Assembly: GCA_040752915.1 (NCBI GenBank) | Contig: JBFMHB010000019.1 | Coordinates: forward strand, 1-45,707 | From: Acidobacteriota bacterium | Lineage (GTDB): Bacteria; Acidobacteriota; UBA4820; DSQY01 | Length of the DNA: 45,707 nt | Direction: 5' to 3' | Part shown: positions 7,656 to 45,707 of the stretch, piece after piece | Numbering within the stretch: the first letter of the stretch is position 1 | Layout of the letters: each line of letters begins with the position of its first letter | The notes under the pieces: generated by a model | What the model was told of the DNA's origin: nothing | Database searches by the model: none | What the model saw: only the letters and a program-made list of their open reading frames with translations | Program-made: the position numbers and the translations under genes

Positions 7656-7775
7656 CGGATGAGGCCCCCCGCCGTGCCTCGCCTCGGGCCCGCACGCTCC
7701 TTGCGGTGGGTCCGCGGGGGCGTGCCAAGTGCCTGATGGGACTTCCGGCGCGATGGATGGCGGAGGTCGACCCTG

Positions 7776-10037
7776 CTACTGGTAGTCGGCCAGGCAGGTA
7801 CGGTTCGTATCCACGAGCACGAGGTCCGGCTTGAAGGCCAGAGGGAATTCCTGGCGGGACCCTTCGGGCTTGAGAAAGAACAGGTACTCCCGAACCTTCT
7901 TCTTCCCTTCCGCGGTCTGGATGGGGATGGGCAGGGTGAGCTTCGAATCCTGGCTGCCTTGGACCACGAGCTTGTCCCCCTCCACCTTGGTGGTGACCTT
8001 GACCTTGGGCAGGACGCTGCTGTGGAGCCATTGATTGAAGTACCAGCCCAACTGGACCTTCAGGTGGCGCTCGAAGGCCTCCTGCACGTCCCGGGTGGAG
8101 AGGAGCTTGCCTTTGGAATGCGTCACGAGGTCCTTGAGGGCCTCGTTGAAGGACCCCTCGCCCCCAGGAGTAAAGCAGGCCATCTTGGAGAGGTTGAGCA
8201 AGGTCCAGGCTCCCTTGTAGTAGACGACGGCCCCGTAAGCCGAATCGGGATCCAGCGTCGTGTACAGACGGGGCCCCAGGCTGATGGGGCCAAAGGAGAT
8301 GTAAGGTTTCTTGAGAACGTCGGAAAGCTTCGTAAAGGTGTGAAAATCGTGGGAGAGATACTTCTTCATCGTGTCCATGCCGGAGCGCTCCCTCAGACAC
8401 ACCAGGGAGGCGTACTCGGCCATGGATTCGGAGATCCATGCATCCCGATAGGTGAGGGGCGCCACTTGGTTGTACCACCACTGGTGGGCCACCTCGTGAG
8501 CCACGACCTGCTCGGGCCACGAGGAGCCGGACCTGTTGAACACACCGTACGAGAGCATGATCATGGAGGGGAAGCCCAGGTTCGTGTAGCCGCTGGTGAG
8601 GCCCGCCTTGAGCGTCTTGTAGGGAATGGGTCCGAACATCTTCGTGTACCGCTCCAAGGCGTCGGCGATCTCATCCGCCACCTCGTCCCGGTTGCGCGTG
8701 ATGTAGGTCGTGTTGGCGTTATCGGGCAACGCCACGTCCACCTCGATTCCCGCGGCGGTTCTCTTGGAATGCTTGAACTTGCCGAAGAGGAAACTGGCGA
8801 GGCGCACCTTTTCCGGCATGTCGTAGGTGAAGACCTCCCTCTCGCCCTGAACGCGGTGGTCGGTCAGGTCTCCCACTCCCAGGCATTCGTAGTTCTTGGG
8901 GACGTCGGCGGAGAACCCGAAGGTAAACCCGTCGGCATCGGAGAGTGAGGGGAACCACCCCGAATCGTCGTGCAGGGCCACGATCCCGAACTCGGAGAAG
9001 CAGAGTTCGGCCGTGTACCGGACTTCCAGAGTCAAGTCTTCTGGGGTTCCTTCCGGGAGACCCACCAGGAGGTGCGACTCGTGGTAGAAGTCTTTCTTCG
9101 AAAAGGCTTCCTTGATGAAGGGGACTTCGGCGCCGCCCGCGAGATTCAACCGGGAAATCTCCAGGCGCGGACTGCACGTGAACAGCAGAGAGCGGACGGG
9201 CCGGAGGAGCTTCATGTGGATGCGCACGAGGGTCCCATCCATCGCCTCACAGGAGCCGTCCAGAACCATCGAAGCCTCGATTCGGCGAACATCGGCAGGG
9301 AACTTGGCCCCGACCTCCGAGGGCGTCTGCAGCGGAGTGAGGGCTCCGGCGGCGTTCCGGTGGAGGCTGACCGCCGCGTCCCACCACCACGCCTCCACAT
9401 GGGGAGGGTGGCCAAGGCGCCGCAGGGACACTTCCTCGGTCTCGTTGGAATCGAGCACGTACGCCCAGACGTCCCCGTCCATCCGGAAGAGGACGGCCAC
9501 GTCTCCCTCTCCGTGCAGGGCGCGATTCAAGACGGTGTCGAGCCAGGACATGCCACCCGCGTGGAAGGCGTTCTTGTACCTCCGGTAGTCCGCTTGCCCT
9601 TCCATGGAGTACCCGCCCACTCCAGGGAGCGGAAGATCCGGGCACGGACCCAGGGGCAGGATGAAGAGGCTCTCCACCGGCTGCCCCGACAGGGCCTCAC
9701 GGCCGATGAACATCTTCAGGTGTTCCCGCTCGACGGGGTCCGAGACCGAGAAATCTATCCTCGCATCGCCCTCGAAGTAGAGTCCCCCCGGCTGGCCCGT
9801 GGAGCGGTCCTCCCCGAACAGCGTCCCGGGGCCAAGCGATGCCTTGAAGGCGGGCCTCGCGATGGTCAGGCCCTCGATGGCCTCCCGCGCCAGGGGTTGT
9901 GGCTCCGTGAGGAAGCGGTAGGATTTCAACAGGTCGGGGGAGGACCCCTTCTGGATGGCCCGGTTCCAGGTCATGTCCACCGCGTAGGAAGCCACCCAGG
10001 CCAGCGTAGCGAAAGCCGCGAACCAAGCTCGGATCAT
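7776..10037 (-). CDS. M1-family (gluzincin) zinc metallopeptidase, exported or membrane-anchored
   Basis: This encodes 753 residues. The start is the ATG complementary to 10035-10037, preceded by an AAGGAGGGGG ribosome binding site; the frame stays open further upstream but only as a shadow of the sigma-factor gene. The N-terminus has a hydrophobic export or anchor segment (residues 4-22). The zinc site is H514-E-V-A-H518 with E537 eighteen residues later (HEVAHQWWYN then WISES), the M1 pattern. The N-terminal half has the beta-rich character of M1 proteins. The canonical GxMEN exopeptidase motif is not evident; the equivalent place reads NLGFPSMIML. It may therefore not be a typical aminopeptidase. 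It is divergent from the ECF sigma operon. Confidence 0.85.
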   Translation of the reverse strand: MIRAWFAAFATLAWVASYAVDMTWNRAIQKGSSPDLLKSYRFLTEPQPLAREAIEGLTIARPAFKASLGPGTLFGEDRSTGQPGGLYFEGDARIDFSVSDPVEREHLKMFIGREALSGQPVESLFILPLGPCPDLPLPGVGGYSMEGQADYRRYKNAFHAGGMSWLDTVLNRALHGEGDVAVLFRMDGDVWAYVLDSNETEEVSLRRLGHPPHVEAWWWDAAVSLHRNAAGALTPLQTPSEVGAKFPADVRRIEASMVLDGSCEAMDGTLVRIHMKLLRPVRSLLFTCSPRLEISRLNLAGGAEVPFIKEAFSKKDFYHESHLLVGLPEGTPEDLTLEVRYTAELCFSEFGIVALHDDSGWFPSLSDADGFTFGFSADVPKNYECLGVGDLTDHRVQGEREVFTYDMPEKVRLASFLFGKFKHSKRTAAGIEVDVALPDNANTTYITRNRDEVADEIADALERYTKMFGPIPYKTLKAGLTSGYTNLGFPSMIMLSYGVFNRSGSSWPEQVVAHEVAHQWWYNQVAPLTYRDAWISESMAEYASLVCLRERSGMDTMKKYLSHDFHTFTKLSDVLKKPYISFGPISLGPRLYTTLDPDSAYGAVVYYKGAWTLLNLSKMACFTPGGEGSFNEALKDLVTHSKGKLLSTRDVQEAFERHLKVQLGWYFNQWLHSSVLPKVKVTTKVEGDKLVVQGSQDSKLTLPIPIQTAEGKKKVREYLFFLKPEGSRQEFPLAFKPDLVLVDTNRTCLADYQ

Positions 10038-30105: not shown

Positions 30106-33100
30106 ATGAGAAGGACAGCATGGGTGGTGGTGTGTCTTGCCCTGGTCCTGACGGCGGTGGGCGCGATGGCGCAAGCCCCGCTCGCGGGCGCCGGCGAGAC
30201 GCAGGTGTTCTATCCCCACGGGGTGGCGGTGTCGCCTCCCTTGAGGGACCTTCCGCCGGCCACGGAAATGGCGGCTCCCGGCGGGAACCGCGAAATCCCC
30301 AACCCCGCTCTCCAGAAGGGGACCATGACCGCCGCGCCGTCTTCCGAAGAGGGCGATCCGGCTGTCCAGTCCTCCCACGGCATGTACGCCATGCCGGGGA
30401 CGGTGGCGGAGTTTGCGGGAATCGGGAACCTGGCGGGCGTGGCCCCGCCGGACACAGAGGGCGACATCGGCCCCGACCACTACGTCCAGTGGGTGAACCT
30501 CCACCTGGCGGCGTGGCAGATCAACCGCTCCACCGTTCCCTACACGGCCACGCAGGTCCTGGGGCCGATCGCGGGGAACACGATCTGGTCTTCCCTGGGC
30601 GGGCCGTGCGCGACGAACAACGACGGGGACCCCATCGTTTTGTGGGACCGCTTCCGGAACCGGTGGGTCATCAGCCAGTTCGCTCTGCCCGATCCGTACT
30701 ACGTGGCCATCGCCGTCTCTCAGACGGCCGATCCCACGGGGGCGTGGTACCTCTATTGCTACGAGTACGACGCCACGAACATGAACGACTACCCGAAGTT
30801 CGGCATCTGGCCCGACGGCTACTACATGACGGTGAACCAGTTCGCCAACATGTCCTCCTGGGCGGGCGCGGGCGTGTGCGTCTTCGAGGCGGACCAGATG
30901 ATCACGGGCAGCCCCACGGCCCGGATGCTGAAGGTGAACCTGGGCGCCGTGGACCTGAATTTCGGCGGCCAGTTGCCGGCCCACTTCGAAGGCATGACCA
31001 ACCCTCCGGCCGGATCGCCCTGCTACATCATGCAGGTGGACGACTCCTCCTGGATCCCCCCGAACGACGCCCTCCGAATCTGGAAGGCCACCACGAACTG
31101 GTCCACCGGGACCCTGACCCTGGGCGTGGCGGGCCAGCCCGACCTCATCCTTCCGACGAACAACTGGGACATCCTCTGCTCCGGAACGCGAAACTGCATT
31201 CCCCAGCCCGGCACCACGCAGGCCGTGGACGCCATCGCGGACCGCCTGATGTACCGGCTGCAATACCGCAACTTCGGCTCCTACGAGTCCATGGTGGTGA
31301 ACCACACGGTGAACGCTGGATCGAGCCGGGCCGGAGTGCGCTGGTACGAAGTGCGCAAGGACTCCACCCAGCCCGACTGGTACATTTACCAGCAGGGCAC
31401 CTTCGCCCCGGCGGACACCTACCACCGCTGGATGGGCAGCGCGGCGCAGGACCACATGGGGAACCTGGCCGTGGGCTACAGCGTCTCCGACGCCTCCACC
31501 ATGTATCCCTCCATTTACTACGCCGGCCGCCTGGCGGGCGACCCCCTGGGCGAACTGAGCCAGGGTGAAGCGTTGATGTACCTGGGTGCCGCCTCCCAGA
31601 CGGGGGTGAACCGCTGGGGCGACTACTCCAGCATGAGCATCGACCCCTATGACGACTGCACGTTCTGGTACACCACCGAGTATTCGACGGGCGGTTGGGA
31701 TTGGGAAACGCGGATCGGCGCCTTCAAGTTCGGCTCCTGCTCCGTCGGCCCGACGGGGACCCTGGCGGGCACGGTGACGGATGCGGCCACGGCTCTTCCA
31801 CTCTCCGGCGCCACGGTGACGGCCACCAACGGGACCATCACCGTGAACACGACGACGGCGGCGGATGGCACCTACAGCATGACCCTGCCCGTCTCCCCGC
31901 CGAACTATGACGTGGGCGCGGCCCGGTACGGTTACGTGCCGGACGCTGTGACGGGTCTCGTCATCACCGACGGCATGACGACGACCCAGAACTTCGCCCT
32001 GGCCCCGGCCCCCAGCCACGTCGTCTCCGGAATAGTGACCGATTCCAACACGGGCTGGCCCCTTTACGCCGAGATCACCATCAACGCTCCGGGCTTCCCC
32101 ACCACGACCCTCTTCACGGATCCCTTGACGGGCGGCTACAGCATCACTCTGGTGGACGGCATGGCCTACACCTTCGCCGTCTCCGCCTGGGTGTCCGGCT
32201 ACGATCCGGGCGGCGCGGTGGTGGGTCCCTTCTCCACCGACGTGACGCAGGACTTCCCCCTGACCCCCAACCTGACGGACTGCAACGCCCCCGGCTACCA
32301 TCCCGACTACGTGTGGATGGAGGACTTTGAGGCCGACAACGGCGGCTTCGCCGTGAGCGGGACCACCTCCTGGGCCTGGGGCGCTCCCACCAGCGGGCCG
32401 GGTGAGGCCCATTCGGGCGCCAACGTTTGGGCCACCAACCTGAGCGGAAACTACAACAACAGCGAGGACGGCTACATCACCTCCCCGGTCATCGACCTGA
32501 GCGCCTACGCGGGCCAGGTGCCCATCGTGGAGTGGTGGCAGTACCTGAACTCCGAGAGCGGGTACGACTACGGCAGTGTCGAGGTCACGAACAACGGGAC
32601 GACGTGGACGCGCGTGTACGGCGAGGTCTCCGGCGCCGTGGACACGGCGTGGACGAAGCACACCGTGGTCCTCGACGCCACCTACGCCACGGCGGCCTTC
32701 CAGATCCGCTTCCGCTTCCGCTCCGACTCCAGCGTGGTCTACCCCGGATACTACGTGGACGACGTGGGCGTGGCCGTGGCCGCCATTCCTCCGGCGACCG
32801 TCCTTTACTCTCAGGACTTCGAGGCCAACAACGGCGGTTACGCCGTGAGCGGTACGACGTCCTTCGCCTGGGGCACGCCCACCTCCGGTCCCGGAGCCGC
32901 CCACTCGGGCGTCAACGTCTGGGCCACCAACCTCAGCGGCAACTACGGCAACGGCGAAAACGGATACCTGACTTCCCCCGTGATCGACCTCTCGGCAGGA
33001 GCCGGGAATTCCATCACCCTCGACTGGTGGCAGTATCTGCGCAGCGAATCCGGCTACGACTACGCCAGCGTGGAAGTCAGCAACGACTCGGGCACCAACT

Positions 33101-35349
33101 GGACGCGGGTTTACGGCGAGGTTTCCGGGAGCATCGACCTCGCCTGGGCCAAGAAGTCCGTGACTCTGGCCTCCACGTACGCCGTGTCCACCTTCCGGCT
33201 CCGCTTCCACTTCCGCTCCGATTCGAGCGTCACCTACCCCGGTTGGTACATCGATGACGTGAGCCTCAGCTACTCGAATGCCCCGCCGATTTCGGTCGGG
33301 TGTATCGCTCCGGAAACCGGTGGCCTGGTTGTGGGCAACGTTTACGACGCCAACACGAACAACCCGTTGAACGGCGCCGCGGTGATCTGCGCGGCTTCCG
33401 GCACGGCGGCCGCTACCGCGGCGACACCGGATGACCCGGCCCTGGACGACGGCTTCTACTGCCTCTACGCGGCGGACAACCCGAGCGACCTGACGGCCAG
33501 CATGACCGGCTACGGCCCCGACACGGCCACGGTGGCCGTCCCCACCTTCGGCGCCGTGTGGCAGGATTTCCACCTTCCCACGGGACGCCTGGAGGCCACT
33601 CCGTCTCCCATCGAAGTGACGGTAAGCCCCTCGGCCCCAACGACCAGCGTGACCCTGACCCTGAGCGAAACGGGCGGAGCCGACGCCACCTTCGATATCC
33701 GCGAGCGGGACGGCCACGTGCTGGCCCCGGCGCGGCGCTTCTCCGTCAAGGGGCAGGAGATGCTGGCCAGGAAGATGGAGAAGAAGTGGGAAGCGGGCAA
33801 GGAAGGCACCAGCATCGGACGCGCCCCGGCCATCCAATTCCAGGGCGAAAAGAAGCCCGGTACGGAGACCATGAGGCCGGTGGCCGCCCTTCTGGGCGAG
33901 CCCGCCTACGGCTGCAACATCTATCCAGGAACCAACCTCGTTCAGTGGCCCGACATCGATATCCCCGGCACCTGGACCGACCTCGGGAGCTACGGCAGCT
34001 ACAGCTTCTTCGGCGGCGATTTCCTGAACGGCGACACGACGACGATGTACGCCGTGGACTACGACACCAACCAGCTCTGCGCCATCGACACGGCCACCCG
34101 CACCGTCACCGTCATCGGCCCTTGCACGCCCCTCGGCGGTGAAAGTTGGACGGGTCTGACTGGCTCCAACGACGGCACCCTCTACGGCTCGTCCACCGAC
34201 ATCACGCGTTCGACGCTCTACACCATTGATCCGTCCACGGGCGCCGCCACGGTAGTGGGGCAGATCACCAACGCTCCGGGCATCATCGACATCGCCATCA
34301 ACGTGGCGGGCGAAATGTACGGCGTGGACATCGTGACCGACTCGCTCATTCACATCGACCCGGCCACGGGCGCCGGCACGGTGGTGGGCGGCCTGGGCGT
34401 GAACGCCAACTACGCGCAGGGAATGGACTTCGAGGACATCTCGGGCATCCTGTACTGGGCGGCCTACACCACCTCGGGCGAACTTCGCACCATCGACACG
34501 GCCACCGGCGCCAGCACCCTCGTGGGCGCCTTCCCCGGCGGGGCCGAGGTGGACTGCCTGGCCTTCACGACCTTCGGCTCCGGCGACGTGCCGTGGCTCT
34601 CGGAGACTCCCACCACGGGGACGGTGGCGGCGAACACGTCGGAGGCCATCACGGTGGACTTCGACGCCACAGGTCTGGCGCCGGGCGACTACCTGGCGAC
34701 GCTGGTGGTGAACAACAACACGCTCTACGGCCGGATCAACGTTCCGGTGACGATGCACGTGGCGTACGACACGCTGGTGGCCACGGCGAGCTCCGACGTG
34801 AGCTTCGGCGAGGCGCCGCTGACGGTGAACTTCACGGGCGCGGCCACGGGCGGAGACGGGGTCTACACCTGGGCGTGGGACTTCGGCGACGGCGGGACCT
34901 CGACGGACCAGAACCCGACGCACGTGTACACGACGGCCGGCTTCTTCATGGCCGTGCTGACGGTGACGGACGGGCAGGGCTCAACGGCGACGGACACGGT
35001 GCTGATCCAGGTCACGATCCCCTTCGACATGAACTTCTACGACTACACGAACCGGGCCCAGCTGTGCGTGTGGAAGCAGACGGGCGCGTACCGGTGGATC
35101 GTCCTGTCCGGACCCTACGCGGGGATGACCTTCGAGGGGACGGGGGTGGTAGCCAACGGCGGCACGGCGTTCTGGACGAATCCGGCGGACCCGACCTACA
35201 TCTACGCGACGTACGACAGCCGCCGCCACCGCGCGCGGGCGTACCTGACGAACACGACGATGGGCGTGTACTCGGCCATCGTGGACACCAACACCCTCGA
35301 CAACCCGCCCTGCGGCGGAGGGGAGCCCGACGGGCCCTCCCAGAACTGA
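30106..35349 (+). CDS. Giant secreted multidomain protein with PKD and shared C-terminal module (1747 aa)
   Basis: The ATG at 30106 has an AAGGGAGGGA site and opens into a signal peptide (cleaved near residue 22); the frame upstream is open but not used. Domains in order: a beta-rich N-terminal head (about 100-545; PPDTEGDIGPDHYVQWVN); two carboxypeptidase-regulatory-like domains (about 551-635, 637-720); two tandem MAM/immune-inhibitor-A-like jelly rolls (about 736-895, 901-1057); a third regulatory-like domain (1072-1158); a beta-propeller-like region (about 1266-1491); a short beta domain; PKD (about 1556-1636, WDFGDGG); and the C-terminal module (1639-1736). No catalytic motif is recognised. 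It is presumably surface-exposed or released and may act in adhesion or polymer binding. Confidence 0.88.
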   Translation: MRRTAWVVVCLALVLTAVGAMAQAPLAGAGETQVFYPHGVAVSPPLRDLPPATEMAAPGGNREIPNPALQKGTMTAAPSSEEGDPAVQSSHGMYAMPGTVAEFAGIGNLAGVAPPDTEGDIGPDHYVQWVNLHLAAWQINRSTVPYTATQVLGPIAGNTIWSSLGGPCATNNDGDPIVLWDRFRNRWVISQFALPDPYYVAIAVSQTADPTGAWYLYCYEYDATNMNDYPKFGIWPDGYYMTVNQFANMSSWAGAGVCVFEADQMITGSPTARMLKVNLGAVDLNFGGQLPAHFEGMTNPPAGSPCYIMQVDDSSWIPPNDALRIWKATTNWSTGTLTLGVAGQPDLILPTNNWDILCSGTRNCIPQPGTTQAVDAIADRLMYRLQYRNFGSYESMVVNHTVNAGSSRAGVRWYEVRKDSTQPDWYIYQQGTFAPADTYHRWMGSAAQDHMGNLAVGYSVSDASTMYPSIYYAGRLAGDPLGELSQGEALMYLGAASQTGVNRWGDYSSMSIDPYDDCTFWYTTEYSTGGWDWETRIGAFKFGSCSVGPTGTLAGTVTDAATALPLSGATVTATNGTITVNTTTAADGTYSMTLPVSPPNYDVGAARYGYVPDAVTGLVITDGMTTTQNFALAPAPSHVVSGIVTDSNTGWPLYAEITINAPGFPTTTLFTDPLTGGYSITLVDGMAYTFAVSAWVSGYDPGGAVVGPFSTDVTQDFPLTPNLTDCNAPGYHPDYVWMEDFEADNGGFAVSGTTSWAWGAPTSGPGEAHSGANVWATNLSGNYNNSEDGYITSPVIDLSAYAGQVPIVEWWQYLNSESGYDYGSVEVTNNGTTWTRVYGEVSGAVDTAWTKHTVVLDATYATAAFQIRFRFRSDSSVVYPGYYVDDVGVAVAAIPPATVLYSQDFEANNGGYAVSGTTSFAWGTPTSGPGAAHSGVNVWATNLSGNYGNGENGYLTSPVIDLSAGAGNSITLDWWQYLRSESGYDYASVEVSNDSGTNWTRVYGEVSGSIDLAWAKKSVTLASTYAVSTFRLRFHFRSDSSVTYPGWYIDDVSLSYSNAPPISVGCIAPETGGLVVGNVYDANTNNPLNGAAVICAASGTAAATAATPDDPALDDGFYCLYAADNPSDLTASMTGYGPDTATVAVPTFGAVWQDFHLPTGRLEATPSPIEVTVSPSAPTTSVTLTLSETGGADATFDIRERDGHVLAPARRFSVKGQEMLARKMEKKWEAGKEGTSIGRAPAIQFQGEKKPGTETMRPVAALLGEPAYGCNIYPGTNLVQWPDIDIPGTWTDLGSYGSYSFFGGDFLNGDTTTMYAVDYDTNQLCAIDTATRTVTVIGPCTPLGGESWTGLTGSNDGTLYGSSTDITRSTLYTIDPSTGAATVVGQITNAPGIIDIAINVAGEMYGVDIVTDSLIHIDPATGAGTVVGGLGVNANYAQGMDFEDISGILYWAAYTTSGELRTIDTATGASTLVGAFPGGAEVDCLAFTTFGSGDVPWLSETPTTGTVAANTSEAITVDFDATGLAPGDYLATLVVNNNTLYGRINVPVTMHVAYDTLVATASSDVSFGEAPLTVNFTGAATGGDGVYTWAWDFGDGGTSTDQNPTHVYTTAGFFMAVLTVTDGQGSTATDTVLIQVTIPFDMNFYDYTNRAQLCVWKQTGAYRWIVLSGPYAGMTFEGTGVVANGGTAFWTNPADPTYIYATYDSRRHRARAYLTNTTMGVYSAIVDTNTLDNPPCGGGEPDGPSQN
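32311..33276 (+). repeat. Tandem duplication of a jelly-roll domain within the first giant gene
   Basis: Two adjacent copies of about 155 residues (32311-32790 and 32806-33276) share long stretches at protein and DNA level, for example DFEAxNGGxAVSGTTS, NVWATNLSGNY, WWQYL.SESGYDY and FRSDSSV.YPG.Y.DDV. The similarity points to a fairly recent internal duplication. Confidence 0.85.
35020..35313 (+). other. Shared C-terminal module, copy 1
   Basis: This 98-residue segment is at the end of the first giant protein. Conserved features are RAQLCV, VANGGTAFW, DPTYIYATYDSRR, RARAYLTN, VYSAIVD and a final NPPC. A short tail of 11 residues follows. It is homologous to segments in the next three genes. 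Confidence 0.9.
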
Positions 35350-35360
35350 CATTCGCTTCC

Positions 35361-35403
35361 TGAGGCACCTCGGGGCGCGGGGCTTCGGCTCCGCGCCCTT
35401 TTT
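35361..35403 (+). terminator. Rho-independent terminator with UUCG tetraloop, copy 1
   Basis: GGGCGCGG (35373-35380) pairs with CCGCGCCC (35391-35398); the inner GGC/GCT pairs close a cUUCGg loop, and five T follow. It ends the first giant gene. The surrounding 41 bases recur with one mismatch at 41091-41132. Confidence 0.92.
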
Positions 35404-35416
35404 CTTGTCCCACCCC

Positions 35417-35446
35417 TTGACGAAGCTCTCCCCTTGGGCATAAGGT
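35417..35446 (+). promoter_or_regulatory. Promoter of the second giant secreted protein
   Basis: TTGACG (35417-35422), 18 bases and TAAGGT (35441-35446) lie directly after the terminator. The leader to the ATG at 35624 is about 170 bases and contains no clear known riboswitch. Confidence 0.4.
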
Positions 35447-35623
35447 CGTGGTACCGCATCATTGCGCGATCAACGGGGAGGGGAATCGGCCGTCGGGGCG
35501 GCTTTGGAGATTCTCACGGGGAATTCGCGTCAAGAACCCGTGGCGTGGCAGAAGGCTCCTGTGGGGCCAGGCGGGGATAGTGTGCGTCGCAGCAGATCTG
35601 CGGGAAAGAGGGAGGGACGAACC

Positions 35624-38600
35624 ATGAGAGGGAAAGACGGGTGGATGGCGTGGCAAAGGGCGGTCCTGATCCTGATCGTCCTCATGCTGGCTATGCCCTG
35701 CGCGGCCCAGGTGGCCAAGCGCCGGGCGTCCAGCCTGGACGATCTCGCCTTCGTCAAGCCGGAACTCAGGGTCCAGCCGGCCGTGGCGGACCTCGACAGC
35801 CTTCGAGCCTTGGGTGCCGTCGAGGCCAAGGCCGTGGCCGAGGCCTACGACGCGTTTCTGAGCCGCGAGGGAGGCTCCTGGGTTCTCCTCGTGGATCGGA
35901 GCACGGGCCGGCCCCTGCTTTTGGAGGGCCAGGGCATCCCCTGGATCCCCGGCGCGAACTCGCTCACCTACGGGGATCTGGGCCTTCGGGGCCCTGACGT
36001 GTCGCTGGATTGGATGGAGGCCAGGGCGCTTTCGTTCTTGAACACCCATCCGGGCCTCTTTGGCGTGGAAGCGACCGACCTCGTGATCAACAAGGGAGCC
36101 TCGGGCCCCATCGGCGACTACCTCTACTTCCTCGATTTCGATTGGACCTACCACGGACTGCCCGTCGAGGGCGCCCACGTGATCTTCCGGGTGAATCACG
36201 GGAATCTCGTGCAGATAGGCGCCGAGGGCATCTCGGAGGCCATTCGTTCGCTGGATCCCCAGCCCTACCTTTCGGCACAGACGGCGACCGAGATCGCGGG
36301 AGGGTTCGTGGGCGGATTCCAGGAGGGAGATGAATTCCTGGGCCGGCCGGACCTGAAGGTCCTGCCCGTGGCGCTTCCGCCCGGGGACGAGACGGCGGCC
36401 TTCGACCGCCTCGCCTACCGGTTGGCATGGACCGTAGCGTTCCACCGGGAGGGCGTCATCGGCAACTGGCAGGTCCTGATAGACGCTCATACGGGGGAAG
36501 TCCTCTCCTTCCGCGACACCAACGACTACGGCAAGGTCCACGGCGGCGTCTATCCCAACGACCGGCCCGCCGCCGAAGTGGATCGCCCATTCCCCTTCGC
36601 GGATTTGGGCGGGGGACTCTTTTCCGATGCCGGGGGCCTTTTCACGGGGAACAACGCCACCTCCACCCTGAGCGGCCAGTACGTCCGGATTCAGGACGTC
36701 ACCTGCGGCGCCGGGGGCGGGGCGGGCGTGATCAGCCTGACCACCACGACCGGCGACCTCGATTTCGGTTCGAGCGCCGGAAGAGACTGCGTGACGCCGG
36801 GGATCGGCGGTTCGGGCAACACCCACGCCGCCCGCACCCAGTTCTACCAGGTCAACCTCATCAAGATGAAGGCCCGCTCGTATCTCCCCGCCAACGCCTG
36901 GCTCGGCGCCCAGCTCACCGACCGGGTCAACATCAACGACGTCTGCAACGCCTACTGGTCGAGCGCATCCGGCACGGTCAACTTCTTCAAGTACGGTGTG
37001 TACGGCTCCTGGACCTGCGAGAACACGGGCGAACTTCCCGGTGTGTCCCTCCACGAATGGGGACACGGCATGGACTACAACGACGGGAACGGCGCCTCGC
37101 CGGAAAAGGGAACGGGGGAGACGTACGGCGATTTCACGGCCGTCCTGCAAACCCACAATTCCTGCGCGGGCAACGGCTTCTTCATTGGCGCCAACTGCTC
37201 GGGCTACGGAGACCCTTGCCTCTCCTGCTCGGGCATCCGGGACATCGATTACGCCGCCCACCAGAGCAACACGCCCGCCGTCCCGACCATGTTGAGCGGC
37301 TCCTCGGGCTTCCACTGCAACACTTCGGGCTCCTATTACGGCCCCTGCGGCTACGAGGGCCACTGCGAGTCGTACATTTCTTCCGAAGCCCTCTGGGATT
37401 TGGCCGTCCGGGACCTGGTGACCTGGGGGATGGACCTGAACACCTCCTGGCTCCACGTGGACAAACTCTGGTACAGGAGCCGGGGCACATCGGGTTCCGC
37501 GTACACGTGCCCCTCTCTGGCCACGACCCACGGGTGCGGCGCGACCAACTACTTCAGCACCTTCCGGGTCATCGACGACGACGACGGGAACCTGGCCAAC
37601 GGGACACCCCACGCCACGGCCATTTTCGCCGCCTTCAACCGCCACGCCATCGCCTGCACGAGCGTCGTGAACACCGACTCCTCCGCGTGTCCTTCCATCG
37701 GCACGCCGGTCCTTGTGGGAACGGCGGGCAGCAATTCCAACGACCTGTCCTGGGGAGCGGTGACGAACGCGGCCACCTACGACGTGTACCGGAACGAGTC
37801 GGGGTGCGACGCCGGATTCACCCGTATCGCGACGGTCACGGCGCCCACCGTGACGTACACCGACAGCTCCGCCATCGACGGCCTGACCTACTACTACCGC
37901 ATCCAGGCCGTGGGCTCCAACGTGTCGTGCTTCAGCGCCCTTTCGAATTGCATGACGCTCACCCCCTCCACGCCCAGCGGGATCCTTCAGGGGACCGTGA
38001 CGGAGCAGGGAACGGGGCTTCCGCTGATGGGGGCCCTGGTGCACGCCGAATCGGGAGGGCTCATCTACGAGGCCACCACGGACCTCTCCGGGAATTACCA
38101 GATCAGCCCCATCGCCGTGGGCACCTACGACGTGACGGCGAGCCTCTTCGGCTACCTGCCGCAGACGGTGAACGGCGTGGCCATCGCCGAGGGCGCCACC
38201 ACGACCCAGAACTTCGCGCTTGCGCCCGCGCCCAGCTCTGTTCTCTCGGGTCACGTTTACGACGGCGACACCGGATGGCCGCTCTATGCCTCCGTCCAGA
38301 TCACCGGGCCGGGCTACCCGGGCACCACGATCTGGACCGACCCGGTGACCGGGTTCTACTCCATCACCCTCGTGGACGGGATCGCCTACACCCTGACGGT
38401 CACATCCTTTGTCACGGGCTACGACCCATTTTCTGATACGATGCTTCCCCTGAGCGGCGGCATGACATGGGACTTCGGTCTGGCGGCCACCGTCACGCCC
38501 TGCACCGCCCCCGGCTACGTGGGAACGGGCCTCTTCCAGAACTTCGACACGACGACCCCCCCGGCCCTTCCCGCCGGATGGGCCATGGTGCGTACGGGCG

Positions 38601-41080
38601 GCACGAACACGGCCACCGCCTGGGCCACACGGGCCGGAACTCGGTATCCGTCGGGCCAACCCTCCCACAGCGCCCCGAACCTGGTCTTCTTCAATTCCTT
38701 CTCGGTCACGACCGGAAACAACGCCCGCCTCTATTACACGGTTCCCCTGGACCTCACCGTGATCGGCGACCAGCTCTCCTTCTGGATGTACCACGATACC
38801 GGATACGCGACCTACAACGACAGGATTCAGGTCCAGGTCTCCACCGACGGCGGGACGATCTGGCAAGACGTGGGCGCGCCCATCTCCCGGTACCTGGCGG
38901 GCAGCAACTACTGGTCCCAGCACACCGTGACCCTCACGGGCTTCACTGGGAGCCCGACCAGCGTCCTCGTGGGAATCCACGGAATCAGCGCGTACGGGAA
39001 CGACATCCACCTGGACGACATCCAGGTCGGTACGCCCAGTTGCAGTGCTCCCTCTTCGGGCGGCCTCATCGTGGGCAACGTTTTGGACCAGAACACGGGC
39101 CTGGGCATCACGGGGTCCACGGCGACCAACACGACCACGGGGGCCTCCATGACCACCGTGGGAACGGGGGGAGATCCCGCCGTGGAGGAGGGCTTCTTCT
39201 GGTTCTACGGCCCTGAAGGGACGAACGACTTGACGGCCACCCGAACGGGCTACTCCTCCGGTTCAACGTCCGCTTCAGTGCCTCACCTCTCTACGGTCCG
39301 GGCGGACATCCTCCTCGGGGCCGGCCAGATTACTCCAACCCCCGCGGCCGTCGATGTGACGCTCCCCGTGGACTCCACCGACACCTTGGTCCTGCGGCTG
39401 GACAATACCGGGACCTCGGACGCGAATTACATGATCAACGAGACCGGGTCGAGGACGCTCCTCCTGCCCTACGCCTGGACCGTTCTCCCCAATGCCCCTA
39501 CGGGCGTTTCGCGCGCCGCGGGCGCCGCACTGGGCGGATACTTCTACATGATCGGCGGGGAATCCACCGGCGGCGGGCGCCTGGGCCTCGTCCAGCGATT
39601 CGACCTTTCGGCGAACGCCTGGGACACGGCTCTTCCCGCCATGCCCACGGGCGTCTCCAACATCACGGCGGCGGCACTGGGGAACGACATTTGCGTGGTG
39701 GGAGGAAGCGGGGCGTCGGCCAGCACCAACGCCCTCCAGGTCTTCCACACGGCCTCAGGGACCTGGGAGACGGTGACCTCGGACCCGTATCCCCAGACCG
39801 CCTACGGCGTCGTCGTGGCGGTCCACGGGAACAAGCTCTACGCCTTCGGCGGCTACACGACCACGTACATCAACAATGCCTACGTCTACGATCCGGCCGC
39901 CGCCGCCGGCTCCCGCTGGACCGCCCTCGCCGCCGCGCCGGTGAGCGGAGCGTGGGGCGGGGCCATGGCCATCGGGGACCGCATCTTCTGGGCCGGCATG
40001 CGAAACTCCACGGCGGACCTGGCCACCGTCGTCGCCTACGACGTCCCGTCCAACACGTGGGTCTCCTATCCGAATCTTCCCGCGGCCCGAGGAGGCGCCG
40101 GCGTCTGGACCAACGGGGCGAACCTCGTGGTGGGCGGCGGCGGTTGGTCCTCCTACAGCACGGCCGTCTACGAATACGACACGAATCAGGGGACGGGGGG
40201 GACCTGGTCCACCACCAACAGCCTCAACGCAGGGCGCCGGGCCTTCGCCTTTGCCACCGACCTCCTTGGTCAACTCTACGCGGCCGGCGGTTGGAACGGC
40301 TCCTACATGACGGCGGCCGAGATGACCCAGGCCTTCGCCGACTGTCCCTGGCTCACCGAATCCCCATTGACCGGGACGATTTCTCCGGGCCTTGGCCACG
40401 ACATCGACCTGCACTTCGACACGACCGGCCTCGTCGCCGGCACCACCTACCAGACGGACCTTCTCATCACCAACGATACCCCCTACGGGAACCTCACCGT
40501 ACCCGTCACCCTCCACGTGACCTATCCGCCCCTGGTGGCGGCGGCCTCGGCGGCGCCCACGAGCGGCACGGCGCCGCTGGCGGTGGCCTTCGCGGGAAGC
40601 GCCACGGGCGGCGACGGATCCTACACCTGGGAGTGGGACTTCGGGGACGGCTCGGCCCACGCCCTGACGCAGAACGCAAACCACACCTACATCGCCCCCG
40701 GCGTCTTTACAGCGACGCTCACCGTCACCGACGGCCAGGGATGGGTGGATACGGACACCGTGGACATCACCGTCACGGTGCCCTTCGACAGCAGTTTCTA
40801 CGACGACGCGGGCCGGGCCCAGGTGTGCGTGTGGCGGCAGGCCGGCATCTACCAGTGGACGATTCTCACGGGACCCAGCGCCGGAACCACGTACACCGGC
40901 ATCTGCGTCGTGGCCAACGGCGGCACGGCCTTCTGGAGCGCCGTGGGCGATCCGGTGAGCTTCTACGTCACTTACGATTCCAGGAGGAGAAGGGCCAGAG
41001 GCTACCTGACCGACACGGCCTCGGGGGTCTATTCGGCCATCGTGGATTCGAACACGACCAACAATCCTCCCTGCCCGTAA
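35624..41080 (+). CDS. Giant secreted metalloprotease with Kelch, PKD and shared C-terminal module (1818 aa)
   Basis: The ATG at 35624 has a GGGAGGGA site and a signal peptide to about residue 29. An FTP/PepSY-like propeptide (about 60-300) is followed by a gluzincin catalytic domain with H477-E-W-G-H481 and E499 in GETYGDF (HExxH-x17-E, then D four residues later, as in thermolysin-type enzymes). Next are a fibronectin-III-like domain (about 689-781), two carboxypeptidase-regulatory-like domains (786-956), a jelly-roll/choice-of-anchor-like domain (959-1139), a third regulatory-like domain (1146-1234), Kelch repeats (about 1279-1574), a short beta domain, PKD (1636-1718) and the C-terminal module (1720-1817). 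It should be a zinc endopeptidase acting outside the cell, activated by propeptide removal; the clan assignment (M4/M36-like) is inference. Confidence 0.9.
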   Translation: MRGKDGWMAWQRAVLILIVLMLAMPCAAQVAKRRASSLDDLAFVKPELRVQPAVADLDSLRALGAVEAKAVAEAYDAFLSREGGSWVLLVDRSTGRPLLLEGQGIPWIPGANSLTYGDLGLRGPDVSLDWMEARALSFLNTHPGLFGVEATDLVINKGASGPIGDYLYFLDFDWTYHGLPVEGAHVIFRVNHGNLVQIGAEGISEAIRSLDPQPYLSAQTATEIAGGFVGGFQEGDEFLGRPDLKVLPVALPPGDETAAFDRLAYRLAWTVAFHREGVIGNWQVLIDAHTGEVLSFRDTNDYGKVHGGVYPNDRPAAEVDRPFPFADLGGGLFSDAGGLFTGNNATSTLSGQYVRIQDVTCGAGGGAGVISLTTTTGDLDFGSSAGRDCVTPGIGGSGNTHAARTQFYQVNLIKMKARSYLPANAWLGAQLTDRVNINDVCNAYWSSASGTVNFFKYGVYGSWTCENTGELPGVSLHEWGHGMDYNDGNGASPEKGTGETYGDFTAVLQTHNSCAGNGFFIGANCSGYGDPCLSCSGIRDIDYAAHQSNTPAVPTMLSGSSGFHCNTSGSYYGPCGYEGHCESYISSEALWDLAVRDLVTWGMDLNTSWLHVDKLWYRSRGTSGSAYTCPSLATTHGCGATNYFSTFRVIDDDDGNLANGTPHATAIFAAFNRHAIACTSVVNTDSSACPSIGTPVLVGTAGSNSNDLSWGAVTNAATYDVYRNESGCDAGFTRIATVTAPTVTYTDSSAIDGLTYYYRIQAVGSNVSCFSALSNCMTLTPSTPSGILQGTVTEQGTGLPLMGALVHAESGGLIYEATTDLSGNYQISPIAVGTYDVTASLFGYLPQTVNGVAIAEGATTTQNFALAPAPSSVLSGHVYDGDTGWPLYASVQITGPGYPGTTIWTDPVTGFYSITLVDGIAYTLTVTSFVTGYDPFSDTMLPLSGGMTWDFGLAATVTPCTAPGYVGTGLFQNFDTTTPPALPAGWAMVRTGGTNTATAWATRAGTRYPSGQPSHSAPNLVFFNSFSVTTGNNARLYYTVPLDLTVIGDQLSFWMYHDTGYATYNDRIQVQVSTDGGTIWQDVGAPISRYLAGSNYWSQHTVTLTGFTGSPTSVLVGIHGISAYGNDIHLDDIQVGTPSCSAPSSGGLIVGNVLDQNTGLGITGSTATNTTTGASMTTVGTGGDPAVEEGFFWFYGPEGTNDLTATRTGYSSGSTSASVPHLSTVRADILLGAGQITPTPAAVDVTLPVDSTDTLVLRLDNTGTSDANYMINETGSRTLLLPYAWTVLPNAPTGVSRAAGAALGGYFYMIGGESTGGGRLGLVQRFDLSANAWDTALPAMPTGVSNITAAALGNDICVVGGSGASASTNALQVFHTASGTWETVTSDPYPQTAYGVVVAVHGNKLYAFGGYTTTYINNAYVYDPAAAAGSRWTALAAAPVSGAWGGAMAIGDRIFWAGMRNSTADLATVVAYDVPSNTWVSYPNLPAARGGAGVWTNGANLVVGGGGWSSYSTAVYEYDTNQGTGGTWSTTNSLNAGRRAFAFATDLLGQLYAAGGWNGSYMTAAEMTQAFADCPWLTESPLTGTISPGLGHDIDLHFDTTGLVAGTTYQTDLLITNDTPYGNLTVPVTLHVTYPPLVAAASAAPTSGTAPLAVAFAGSATGGDGSYTWEWDFGDGSAHALTQNANHTYIAPGVFTATLTVTDGQGWVDTDTVDITVTVPFDSSFYDDAGRAQVCVWRQAGIYQWTILTGPSAGTTYTGICVVANGGTAFWSAVGDPVSFYVTYDSRRRRARGYLTDTASGVYSAIVDSNTTNNPPCP
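40781..41074 (+). other. Shared C-terminal module, copy 2
   Basis: This 98-residue segment aligns without gaps to copy 1, with RAQVCV, VVANGGTAFW, TYDSRRRRARGYLTD, VYSAIVDSNT and NPPC. Only one residue follows the last cysteine before the stop. Confidence 0.9.
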
Positions 41081-41090
41081 GGGACCGGAA

Positions 41091-41132
41091 TGAGCCACCT
41101 CGGGGCGCGGGGCTTCGGCTCCGCGCCCTTTT
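41091..41132 (+). terminator. Rho-independent terminator with UUCG tetraloop, copy 2
   Basis: The stem GGGCGCGG (41103-41110) / CCGCGCCC (41121-41128), the cUUCGg loop and four T follow the second giant gene. It is a near-exact repeat of the terminator at 35361-35403. Confidence 0.9.
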
Positions 41133-41164
41133 CTTGTTCCGGGGAAAAGGGGTCCGGGGTTCGA

Positions 41165-41200
41165 ACCGGGTGGAAAAGCCTGGCTCCGGATTCACCCGGT
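41165..41200 (+). other. Inverted repeat in the spacer after the second giant gene
   Basis: ACCGGGTG (41165-41172) and CACCCGGT (41193-41200) are perfect 8-bp arms around a 20-base loop that contains a small AGCC/GGCT stem. It lies between the terminator and the next promoter. Its role is unknown. Confidence 0.4.
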
Positions 41201-41271
41201 GGAGGAGGTCCAGCGTTCTTTCTGAAGGATGGGGCATCCCGCCCAGTGAGAACCTAGTTGCCGATTTCTGA

Positions 41272-41300
41272 TTGATAGGAGTAGAAACCGAAGGTATACC
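41272..41300 (+). promoter_or_regulatory. Promoter of the third secreted-protein gene
   Basis: TTGATA (41272-41277), 17 bases, TATACC (41295-41300). The predicted leader is about 105 bases and holds a strong hairpin. Confidence 0.5.
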
Positions 41301-41330
41301 TGTCACCAGGTTCACGGTGCGAGGGCCGGG

Positions 41331-41370
41331 GTGCTTCGCTCCACGCGGGGGAAACCGGGAGGCGAAGCAC
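41331..41370 (+). other. Leader hairpin of the third secreted-protein gene
   Basis: GTGCTTCGC (41331-41339) and GCGAAGCAC (41362-41370) form a perfect 9-bp stem around a 22-base loop, entirely within the predicted 5' leader. It ends 44 bases before the ATG. It does not match a riboswitch class I know. Confidence 0.5.
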
Positions 41371-41414
41371 GACCAGACCATCAGAACGGGACGGATCATG
41401 AGGAGAAGAGCGCC

Positions 41415-42557
41415 ATGACGGGAACCATTCGAAAGGCGGGTGCGTGTCTGATTCTGATTCTGGGGCTCATACCGGGCCTGTGGGCCTGGGCCGAGGATGG
41501 CCTGGAGGGGCGCCAGAATGCCCTCGAAGCTCCGGCACCGCCGGCTCCGGCCGCCGCCTATGAACGGGCCGCGAACTCGGTGGTCCCCGCGGCGGAGATC
41601 CTGATCTACGCCGACGATCCCTACCACGCGGCCTCCAATACCTTCCTGGACCAGGCCCTCCAATATTGGGGACTGCCCTACGAGGCCCACTACGACGGCG
41701 ACTTCTCGGGCTTCGAGGCGGCCCTCGAGCTGGGCGGACCCTGGACCCTCGTCCTCTTCGGCAACGACAACTACGGCGCTCCCGAGTCGGTTTTCGACGC
41801 GCTGGAGGCCTACGTGGCGGGCGGCGGAAAACTGATCCTGAACACTTGGGTCATAAACAGTTATCCCGGGCATCCCCTCTGGGCCACGTTGGGTGTGGGC
41901 TATGCCGTAAACAACTACGACCCGCCGGCGCCCGTGTACTGGTGGGACCCGTCCCACCCCTTCTTTACGGACCCCATGGCCGTGCCCGAGCTGACGAGCC
42001 TCACGGGGTACCGCTACGGCACCTATGGCCAGTTCGTCGATCCCCTTCCCGGCTTCGAGGCCCTGGCGGGGTACGCGGCTTCGCCCGCCCCGGGCCAGGC
42101 GGCTCTCCTTCTCGGCAACGACGGGAGGACGGTCTACAAGGCCTTCCTCGACGGCCAGAACGACGCCGACCTGGACGGGGATTTGATCCTGGACGGGATA
42201 GAACTCTGGATCGACCTCGTCCGGGGAGTTCGAGAGGGGGTGGTCGTCTACGACGTCCTCTTCCAGGACGATCTGGGCCGGAGCCAGCTCTGCATCGCCA
42301 AGAAGACGGGCCACTACATCTGGAGCCTGAATAGCACGGGAGCCCTGTACACCGGCGTCGGCGAGGTGGCCAACGGCGGAACGGCCTTCTGGACGCTCCC
42401 CGAGGACCCCAACTACATCTACAGCGTGTACGACTCCCGGCGGAAGCGGGCCCGCGCCTACTTCAGCAACACGGAGGACGGAGTCTACTCGAGCCTTGTG
42501 GACCGCAACACGGCCAACAACGAGGGCGAGTGCTCCACCGAACCGCAGGAGCGATAA
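41415..42557 (+). CDS. Secreted protein with Rossmann-like domain and shared C-terminal module
   Basis: From ATG 41415 (GAGGAGAAG site) it has 380 residues with a signal peptide (about 1-26). The N-terminal domain (about residues 55-270) alternates strands and helices (AEILIYADDP, WTLVLFGNDNYGAP, AYVAGGGKLILNTWV), which suggests a Rossmann or class-I amidotransferase-like fold without a visible catalytic Cys. The last part (280-373) is the C-terminal module. It lacks the PKD and regulatory-like domains of the giants. The fourth gene follows after 65 bases and is probably cotranscribed. Confidence 0.85.
   Translation: MTGTIRKAGACLILILGLIPGLWAWAEDGLEGRQNALEAPAPPAPAAAYERAANSVVPAAEILIYADDPYHAASNTFLDQALQYWGLPYEAHYDGDFSGFEAALELGGPWTLVLFGNDNYGAPESVFDALEAYVAGGGKLILNTWVINSYPGHPLWATLGVGYAVNNYDPPAPVYWWDPSHPFFTDPMAVPELTSLTGYRYGTYGQFVDPLPGFEALAGYAASPAPGQAALLLGNDGRTVYKAFLDGQNDADLDGDLILDGIELWIDLVRGVREGVVVYDVLFQDDLGRSQLCIAKKTGHYIWSLNSTGALYTGVGEVANGGTAFWTLPEDPNYIYSVYDSRRKRARAYFSNTEDGVYSSLVDRNTANNEGECSTEPQER
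42252..42533 (+). other. Shared C-terminal module, copy 3
   Basis: This segment of about 94 residues has DDLGRSQLC, VANGGTAFWTLPEDP, YDSRRKRARAYFSN, VYSSLVDRNT and a final Cys. It is closest to copy 4 (shared TLPEDP and RKRARAYF). Confidence 0.9.
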
Positions 42558-42569
42558 GGAAGAGCAACC

Positions 42570-42588
42570 CGGCGGTTGAGCACCGCCG
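42570..42588 (+). other. Intercistronic hairpin between the third and fourth secreted-protein genes
   Basis: CGGCGG (42570-42575) and CCGCCG (42583-42588) form a 6-bp stem with a 7-base loop, without a T-run. It may influence mRNA stability between two probably cotranscribed genes. Confidence 0.35.
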
Positions 42589-42622
42589 AGAACTTTGTCG
42601 GAGGAAAGTGAGGAGGGACATC

Positions 42623-43540
42623 ATGAAGTCGAGACGGGCCATTTCCATCCTGGTTCTGGCGGGTCTGGTTCTCTCGGGGGCGGTCCTGGCCTTCGATCCC
42701 AACGACGCGGGCGTCCCCGTGCCCGAACCGAACCCCGGAGAGGTCTACACCGTACCCAACGCCTGCGTCACGATCAACGGCGTCCTCGGCAGCGGGTCCG
42801 CCGATTGGGCTTGGACGACCGGGACCATCCCCGGGTACCGGATTTTCCGGGACGGCAACCCATCGTCCTGCGCCTCGCCGAAGTCGTGTCCGGGGACCTG
42901 TTGCACCACTTCGTGCGCCTTTGACGCCTACACGATCTACAACACGACGGGCGCCGAATTGTGCGTGGAGGCGGACCTGAACGTCGCCGCGGACTACCTC
43001 CATCTCGTCGCCTACGACGGTGTCTTCGACCCTGCCGACATTTGCATCAATTACCTCGGGGACAGCGGGAGCAGCGCCGGCAGCGGCTCCACGGAAGGCC
43101 TCTCCGTTACGTTGCCCGCGGGCGCCGGCATCGTGTTCGTGGTTCACGAGAACACGCCCGGGGCGGGGATCGGCGACTCCTACCTCCTCACCGTCAACGG
43201 CGCGTGCGGCGGCGCCTTCGCTCCCGACCTGACCTTACTGGACGACCTGGGGCGCTCGGAGCTGTGCATCCAGAAGTCCAACGGGATGTACCAGTGGACC
43301 AACGCCGACGGGTCGGTCTACGCGGGCACGGGCGTGGTGGCCAACGGGGGCACGGCCTTCTGGACGCTGCCCGAGGACCCGACGTACATCTACGCGACCT
43401 ACGACAGCCGGCGCAAGCGCGCCCGGGCCTACTTCACGAACAGCGACGATGCCGTCTACAACAGCCTCGTGGACCGGAACACGACCAACAACCCCGAGTG
43501 CGGCAGCCTGATCGAAGTGGAGCCTCCGCCGGTCTACTGA
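42623..43540 (+). CDS. Secreted protein with PPC-like domain and shared C-terminal module
   Basis: From ATG 42623 (GAGGAGGGA site) it has 305 residues with a signal peptide ending near residue 23 (VLAF). A Cys-rich beta-sandwich follows (about 45-195; CVTINGVLG, SCPGTCCTTSC, FDAYTIYNTTGAELCVEADL, DSYLLTVNGAC). It resembles bacterial pre-peptidase C-terminal (PPC) domains. The C-terminal module covers about 202-293. With six clustered cysteines before the module the protein is probably disulfide-bonded and extracytoplasmic. No enzyme motif is seen. Confidence 0.85.
   Translation: MKSRRAISILVLAGLVLSGAVLAFDPNDAGVPVPEPNPGEVYTVPNACVTINGVLGSGSADWAWTTGTIPGYRIFRDGNPSSCASPKSCPGTCCTTSCAFDAYTIYNTTGAELCVEADLNVAADYLHLVAYDGVFDPADICINYLGDSGSSAGSGSTEGLSVTLPAGAGIVFVVHENTPGAGIGDSYLLTVNGACGGAFAPDLTLLDDLGRSELCIQKSNGMYQWTNADGSVYAGTGVVANGGTAFWTLPEDPTYIYATYDSRRKRARAYFTNSDDAVYNSLVDRNTTNNPECGSLIEVEPPPVY
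43226..43501 (+). other. Shared C-terminal module, copy 4
   Basis: This is the shortest copy, about 92 residues, with DDLGRSELC, VVANGGTAFWTLPEDP, YIYATYDSRRKRARAYF, VYNSLVDRNT and NPEC. Thirteen residues follow the last cysteine. Confidence 0.9.
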
Positions 43541-44122: not shown

Positions 44123-45707
44123 ATGCGTTCATGCGGGAGGTGTGTTCTTGTAGCCGTCTTGCTGGGGACCCTGGGGCTATTCGCCTGGGCGGGGACGGGA
44201 GCCGTCCCCCAGGTCTCCAGCGGGAAGACGATCGTGAAACTGGCTCCGGCTGGGCCTGTGGCGCCTCCGGAGAACCTGGCCCAGGAAAACGTGGGCGACG
44301 TCCCGGAGGAGCCGCCGTCTCCGCCGGACCAATTCGCCCCCCATGCGGTCCTGTGGGACCAGCCCGTGTCCTCCGTGAACACGGGGGTTTACGTGGATCA
44401 GGACTTTATCGATTTTCCGACCTACAGTTCCTACCTGGCCGATGATTTCACCAATGCCGGGCCTTGGAGCATTACCTCCATCTTCGTTGCGGGAGGCGGT
44501 TGGAACGGCTTCTCCTCCCTCGCCAACGCCACGGCTTTGAACTGGGCCATCTACGCCGATGGCGGGGGGGTTCCCGACGGCGATCCCTCGGGGGGAGGCA
44601 ACGCTCCGGTCTGGTCCCTCAGCCTCCTCCCATCCGACCCCCAGGTCGCCCTCACCATCAATCCCACCTACGGGATCCTGAGCGACACCCTGCTCACGCT
44701 TTCCGCGCCCGTGGCCCTTCCGCCGGGCACCTACTGGCTCGTTTTTTATCCCACGCTGGCCTTCGAGGGCGGCGGCCAGTTCGGCCGCTTCCCCTCCGAC
44801 ACGGCCAACGGCGCCACGGCCCAGTTCATCAACCCCGGAGGGGCCTTCGGATACGGAACCGCTTGGCAGAACTGGAACATCTTGGGGGCCGCGCAAACGG
44901 ATCTGGCCTTCCGAATCGAGGGCGACCTGGCTTCCTGCACGGTCCTCTACGACAACGGGCCCCTGGTGACCCACGTCGCGGGGTGCTCCGGGCAGGACGC
45001 CAGCCGGCTTCAGACGGGGCTGGGCATGAACACCCTGGGCTTCGGCCACCAGGCCGACCTGGGCTACCGGATGGCCGACGACTTCACGCTCACGTCCACG
45101 GCGCAGATCGACCAGATCGACTTCTTCGCCTACCAGACGGGAGCGCCCACTACCTCGCCGATCACGGCCGTCTACTACCAGATATGGGACGGCCCGCCCA
45201 ACGCAGGCGGGACGGTGATCTTCGGCGACCTCACGACAAACCGCCTCACGGCCACGGAGTTCTCCAACATCCAGCGGGACAGCGAAACGAGCTCCTGCGC
45301 CAACGACCGGTACATCTTCCGGAACACCTGCTCGGCGGGGGTCAGCCTCCCTGCCGGCACGTACTGGATCGACTGGATGACGGACGGGAGCCTCTCTTCG
45401 GGTCCCTGGGCGCCGCCCATCACCGTCCTGGGCCAGACAACCACCGGGAACGCCCTGCAGTACACCACGGCCTGGGCTTCGGCCAACGATTCGGGCACGC
45501 TGACCCAGCAGGGCATGCCCTTCGTGCTTTACACCTGCGCGGCGGGCTGTCCGACGATCACCATCGACCCGGCGGTTCTGCCGCCCATGCAGAGGGGCAC
45601 GCCCTGGTCGGTGACCTTCACGGCGTCGGGCGGGACGGCGCCCTACTCCTTCTCGCTGACGGGGACGGTGCCTCCTGGGCTGATCTGGGACCAGGTGAGC
45701 GCGACGC
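44123..45707 (+). CDS. Secreted beta-domain protein, 3' end outside the window
   Basis: The ATG at 44123 has a GAGGGAAGGG site and a signal peptide (about residues 1-27, ending FAWAGTGA). The frame is open with no stop through the window edge, giving at least 528 residues. Two related beta-sandwich units each start with an ADDFT motif (about residues 106 and 318) and contain a PPGTYW / PAGTYW turn. A He_PIG-type immunoglobulin-like domain begins at about 482 (SVTFTASGGTAPYSFSL). The gene lies beside four secreted proteins sharing a C-terminal module, so it may carry one too, but its C-terminus is not visible. No catalytic motif is seen. Confidence 0.82.
   Translation, partial: MRSCGRCVLVAVLLGTLGLFAWAGTGAVPQVSSGKTIVKLAPAGPVAPPENLAQENVGDVPEEPPSPPDQFAPHAVLWDQPVSSVNTGVYVDQDFIDFPTYSSYLADDFTNAGPWSITSIFVAGGGWNGFSSLANATALNWAIYADGGGVPDGDPSGGGNAPVWSLSLLPSDPQVALTINPTYGILSDTLLTLSAPVALPPGTYWLVFYPTLAFEGGGQFGRFPSDTANGATAQFINPGGAFGYGTAWQNWNILGAAQTDLAFRIEGDLASCTVLYDNGPLVTHVAGCSGQDASRLQTGLGMNTLGFGHQADLGYRMADDFTLTSTAQIDQIDFFAYQTGAPTTSPITAVYYQIWDGPPNAGGTVIFGDLTTNRLTATEFSNIQRDSETSSCANDRYIFRNTCSAGVSLPAGTYWIDWMTDGSLSSGPWAPPITVLGQTTTGNALQYTTAWASANDSGTLTQQGMPFVLYTCAAGCPTITIDPAVLPPMQRGTPWSVTFTASGGTAPYSFSLTGTVPPGLIWDQVSAT

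Follow-up and report, generated by a model that had tools for sequence, protein, structure and literature searches.

Near the right end of a contig from an Acidobacteriota bacterium, four adjacent genes for exported proteins close with the same stretch of about 95 amino acids, which raises the question of what kind of domain this is and what it does at the end of such different proteins. The window, i.e. the whole stretch of 45,707 nucleotides that was analyzed, is the entire contig C19 of a 3.07-Mb genome. An earlier note on this DNA had described a C-terminal module shared by the four genes, with everything before it different, and had read it as a sorting, anchoring or assembly signal. We found the same module at the end of all four genes (Table 1), with a length of 94–98 residues and a pairwise protein identity of 50–69% (E 1e-33 to 1e-48). 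All motifs named in the note could be located: two cysteines, VANGGTAFW, a DP pair, YDSRRxRARxY and VDxNTxxNxxC. Each of the four proteins has a signal-peptide-like N-terminus and none shows a terminal membrane helix, an LPxTG motif or a PEP-CTERM tail; here and below signal peptides were called from hydropathy and reading, not with SignalP.

Table 1. Positions of the module genes, module copies and neighboring features in the window, and of the stand-alone paralogue elsewhere.
Feature	Position	Strand	Description
g1	30106..35349	+	exported multidomain protein with signal-peptide-like start at 30106; carboxypeptidase-regulatory, choice-of-anchor J/MAM and PKD domains; C-terminal module
module copy 1 (g1)	35020..35313	+	98 aa; 12 residues before stop
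terminator stem-loop 3' of g1	35373..35398	+	26 nt, identical to g2 terminator
g2	35624..41080	+	exported M36-type metalloprotease (HEWGH); signal-peptide-like N-terminus; C-terminal module
module copy 2 (g2)	40781..41074	+	98 aa; one residue before stop
terminator stem-loop 3' of g2	41103..41128	+	same 26 nt as 3' of g1
g3	41415..42557	+	exported; alpha/beta-looking head without assigned family; C-terminal module
module copy 3 (g3)	42246..42533	+	
g4	42623..43540	+	exported; Cys-rich beta-type head without assigned family; C-terminal module; start codon chosen by position downstream of GGAGG
module copy 4 (g4)	43220..43501	+	
gene 5	44123..45707	+	exported protein; runs off contig end
stand-alone Cys-less paralogue	L075:7679-8314 (G000:C1:101885-102229); L164-L172		

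The heads in front of the module differ less completely than had been proposed. Those of g3 and g4 are indeed unrelated to each other and to g1 and g2, but g1 and g2 share further regions with each other: carboxypeptidase-regulatory, choice-of-anchor J/MAM and PKD regions, the last with 53% identity over 147 residues directly before the module. In g2, carboxypeptidase-regulatory, choice-of-anchor J, Kelch and PKD domains accompany the protease. Both g1 and g2 exceed the NCBIfam cut-off for choice-of-anchor J, presumably, going by its name, a domain found with varying anchoring ends. Homologues of the g3 head occur in the genus labelled g33 (43–52% identity) and in a genome without the module, G077 (40%), and the g4 head is homologous to heads in the genus labelled g3.

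Three further module copies are located in the source genome on contig C69, at the ends of an S8 subtilase, a propeller-like protein and a gene truncated at the contig edge. Searched with a profile of all seven copies, 9 of the 60 related genomes contained relatives. A 30-member profile detected the module in 18 genomes out of 297 from this phylum and in none of the 198 from the phylum to which a Saprospiraceae genome belongs. A single Saprospiraceae locus from a contig scan, with a match of 14 residues, was taken as chance. The distribution is patchy, with seven matches in G001 and none in its congener G004, and neither viral contigs nor a plasmid search gave any sign of carriage by phages or plasmids. 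Neither the window copies nor 30 diverse members matched any entry in Pfam, NCBIfam or the PDB sequences, which answers the question of the earlier note whether an already described family is involved, and we found no description of the domain in the literature. Across the phylum the skeleton YDL.F.DD.GRS.LC.NS.TG.Y.Y.VL.G.GAG.YTG.G, followed by RATA and then S.L.DRNT.DNP..C, is kept; among the sequences read, NGGTAFW and YDSRR are restricted to the lineage of the source genome. The module is a real and previously undescribed C-terminal domain family with an unusual evolution; anatomically it resembles a C-terminal sorting domain, while falling outside the known sorting families.

The right ends of the window (44123-45707) and of C69 (L008:13854-14159) each lie inside a gene for an exported protein, in compatible orientation. 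Gene 5 may supply the head that is missing from the truncated module gene on C69, and the two contigs may adjoin, then leading into the nuo (complex I) genes; the module genes might in that case form one longer array. The two ends share no sequence in an end-overlap comparison.

We read 58 module copies from 12 genomes, 57 of them with an intact end. The earlier note had suggested asking whether relatives are always C-terminal on signal-peptide proteins, and the C-terminal position held for all 57: the stop codon follows 0–16 residues (median 3) after the end of the module. There is one module per protein, and nearly all complete module genes start with a signal-peptide-like stretch as judged by hydropathy. 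The pattern general to C-terminal sorting domains, namely a strictly terminal position on exported proteins with unrelated heads, was thus found throughout, with at least ten head groups. Both cysteines are retained in 53 of 56 copies; three copies deviate, all of them from distant genomes and with four or six cysteines each. The conserved pair brackets the domain, and the last residues would probably be tied back by a Cys-Cys bond.

Two observations concern individual relatives. At L066:5020-7158 (G052:C104) a module lies behind a head that has lost its frame, beside two intact module genes, and looks like a decayed copy. A stand-alone paralogue lacking the cysteines, which consists of a signal peptide, the domain and a Pro-rich tail, occurs as one clear copy in nine of nine genomes of the family, whether these bear the module or not, and was for this reason rejected as the partner of the module.

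We compared the module with the known systems that act on protein C-termini. The C-terminal domains of type IX secretion (T9SS; TIGR04183 type A and TIGR04131 type B; PMC4804311) are likewise folded beta domains that form the very end of various proteins with Sec signal peptides. In position, size, export signal and independence of the head the module resembles them, and it could be asked whether it belongs to these signals. The outer-membrane translocon SprA was detected in none of the 34 genomes searched, while the same search scored 2343 bits in a Saprospiraceae genome, G297. Likewise, 30 diverse members gave no match to TIGR04183 or TIGR04131 at E up to 1 in NCBIfam, which includes both models. 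T9SS domains form a seven-stranded Ig-like sandwich (PMC4804311), in contrast to the eight strands and barrel matches of the predicted module structure (see below; one of the two models is poor), and they differ further from the module in its conserved Cys pair and in the phylum. Membership among the type IX signals is thus extremely improbable, and T9SS was rejected on the absence of SprA with a working positive control.

The tails recognized by exosortase (PEP-CTERM), rhombosortase (GlyGly-CTERM) and sortase (LPxTG) are also C-terminal, independent of the head and found on exported proteins, among them M36 proteases and choice-of-anchor proteins. However, they are short and consist of a membrane helix with a basic end, whereas the module is a polar, putatively all-beta domain of about 95 residues with a polar tail of 0–16 residues; none of the tails after the module contains a membrane helix with basic end or an LPxTG motif. 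Exosortase (PF09721) is absent from G000–G009 and G157; the source genome and its whole family lack it, and exosortase sorting was rejected for the source genome on this ground. The gene is present in some other module-bearing genomes, e.g. G040. A GspD-like secretin was discarded as a discriminating partner because matches occur in 34 of 34 genomes with or without the module. Among SprA, exosortase and GspD-like secretins, the co-occurring secretion system that the earlier note had suggested looking for was therefore not found, and no conserved partner gene adjoins the module loci, whose neighbors are housekeeping genes or shared only locally.

The structure was predicted with AlphaFold2 from the four window copies. 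With the g1 copy first, the model shows eight strands (pLDDT 80, pTM 0.64); with the g4 copy first it is poor (pLDDT 59). In Foldseek the g1-first model, which is of middling quality, matched MoaF-like, phenolic acid decarboxylase and avidin barrels with E-values of 0.003–0.03 and a probability of 1.0 for the best, and matches to viral structures were no stronger. We provisionally assign the module a predicted eight-stranded meander barrel, as in these calycin-like proteins. The likeness has limits, since the best E-value is only 0.003, identities are 8–21% and there is no family match by sequence. Known barrels of these types are mostly free-standing proteins, in contrast to the terminal module.

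Such a fold would suit a ligand-binding module, i.e. a small closed beta-barrel of carbohydrate-binding or lipocalin/avidin-like type that tethers the exported protein to some external polymer, e.g. a glycan or lipid. Consistent with this, the middle of the domain varies strongly from lineage to lineage, as a binding site might, and the stand-alone paralogue represents an exported version without a head. Binding modules are, however, commonly also located internally, at the N-terminus or in repeats, whereas this one is strictly terminal and single; the barrel model is of middling quality, and the second model is poor. We regard ligand binding as possible, if doubtful.

To which extent heads and modules have evolved together can be read from their relationships. 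The heads comprise S8 and M36 proteases, Kelch and other propellers, Ig-like proteins and unassigned types, and fall into ten groups with several members; nine of these groups extend over at least two genera. Heads from the source genome are 34–61% identical to their best counterparts elsewhere. Compared with the modules of any other genome, its own average only 26–35% identity, vs 58% among themselves. When 55 modules were placed on a maximum-likelihood tree, 9 changes of the genus label were required (minimum 7), compared to a mean of 32.7 after shuffling, and none of 200 shuffles was as low. On the roughly 45 rows whose head group is known, 25 changes were required for the head label vs 6 for the genus label. 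The seven modules of the source genome form one clade (support 100/97). As the alignment has only 99 columns, the fine branching is unsure, while the grouping by lineage is not. Modules group by lineage or genus and not by head; trees and DNA boundaries agree on the independence from the head that had been proposed. Conversely, the same heads occur with other endings: M36 paralogues in the source genome lack the module, as does the g3-type head in G077.

In addition, homologous heads at L144 and L145 (G000:C2) and L113 (G077:C1) carry other Cys-containing endings (TADAYCDK, TGACP, SCSGGCP), possibly further C-terminal modules of the same phylum.

At DNA level, long matches between the four window copies and thus a recent spread had been suggested. 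Within the window this could not be confirmed: exact matches between two modules reach at most 17 nt, and identity at fourfold sites ranges from 0.36 to 0.86. Other genomes clearly show recent spread. Two genes of G052 with unrelated heads have in common a block of 351 bp with 97% identity, which begins at the third base of the module and ends 50 bp beyond the stop codon, and in G040 blocks of 358 bp (90–92% identical) reach from the module start to 54 bp past the stop. In both genomes the shared blocks take in the terminator hairpin. In the window the identical terminator stems are situated 22–23 nt after the stop codons of g1 and g2, and this stem occurs nowhere else in the genome with up to two mismatches. 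A neighbor pair in G001 shares the upstream and signal-peptide DNA as well as the module and 3' flank, with different heads in between. These sharply bounded blocks join unrelated heads. The exchanged unit thus consists of module, stop codon and terminator, and the module is an interchangeable 3' cassette. Both gene conversion and repeated capture of heads fit its origin.

The genes at L071:5695-6864 and 7482-8468 (G001:C33) have near-identical signal-peptide regions, the same module and unrelated heads, as if the middle had been swapped.

Alternatively, the module might be a passive cap, a disulfide-closed domain that protects extracellular proteins or helps them fold, spread by recombination between neighboring genes and in need of no specific partner. 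The terminal position and the bracketing Cys pair agree with such a cap, as does the lack of a linked or co-occurring partner in our searches; tandem arrays and exact cassette edges favor gene conversion. On the other hand, the same heads do without the module in other genomes and in paralogues, the patchy distribution includes its loss in a congener (G004 compared to G001), and surface-type motifs are strongly conserved within a lineage. We consider such a cap quite unlikely.

The reading that we favor, tentatively and without calling it probable, is that the module is an interchangeable C-terminal tag domain read by a common partner in the cell envelope for sorting or retention. Small extracytoplasmic all-beta domains of this undescribed family would be fused to the ends of many kinds of exported proteins, one common partner would recognize all of them and sort them to, or hold them at, a given site, and module, stop codon and terminator would be exchanged or homogenized between genes by recombination. 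A commonly read tag is suggested because the module is strictly terminal, follows unrelated heads including choice-of-anchor hosts, is replaced by other endings on homologous heads and is uniform within lineages. The interpretation of the earlier note is partly supported, the sorting or anchoring role being putative.

Several findings count against such a tag. No receptor, protease or secretion system was found to track the module, and the several diverged module subtypes within some genomes (G040) speak against a single strict receptor. Homogenization of the modules may also result from DNA recombination alone. Furthermore, M36 enzymes continue to be exported in close relatives devoid of the module. 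Because these relatives still have the enzymes, the module is not needed for export as such, and surface retention or targeting to a site is a more likely role than bulk export. In a more far-reaching version, which we regard as rather unlikely, this phylum would possess a so far undescribed pathway for export or surface attachment, with the module as the signal on its cargo. The module would then be a functional counterpart of the T9SS signal with another fold and machinery, kept uniform in each lineage by cassette exchange.

If the tag role is true, the module would mark exported cargo such as proteases, propellers and Ig-like proteins in poorly known bacteria and would provide a handle for finding its receptor. 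Even without this role the domain family itself is undescribed, and the discordance between module and head relationships, combined with the exact 3' edges of the cassette, offers a clean example of a protein tag under concerted evolution.
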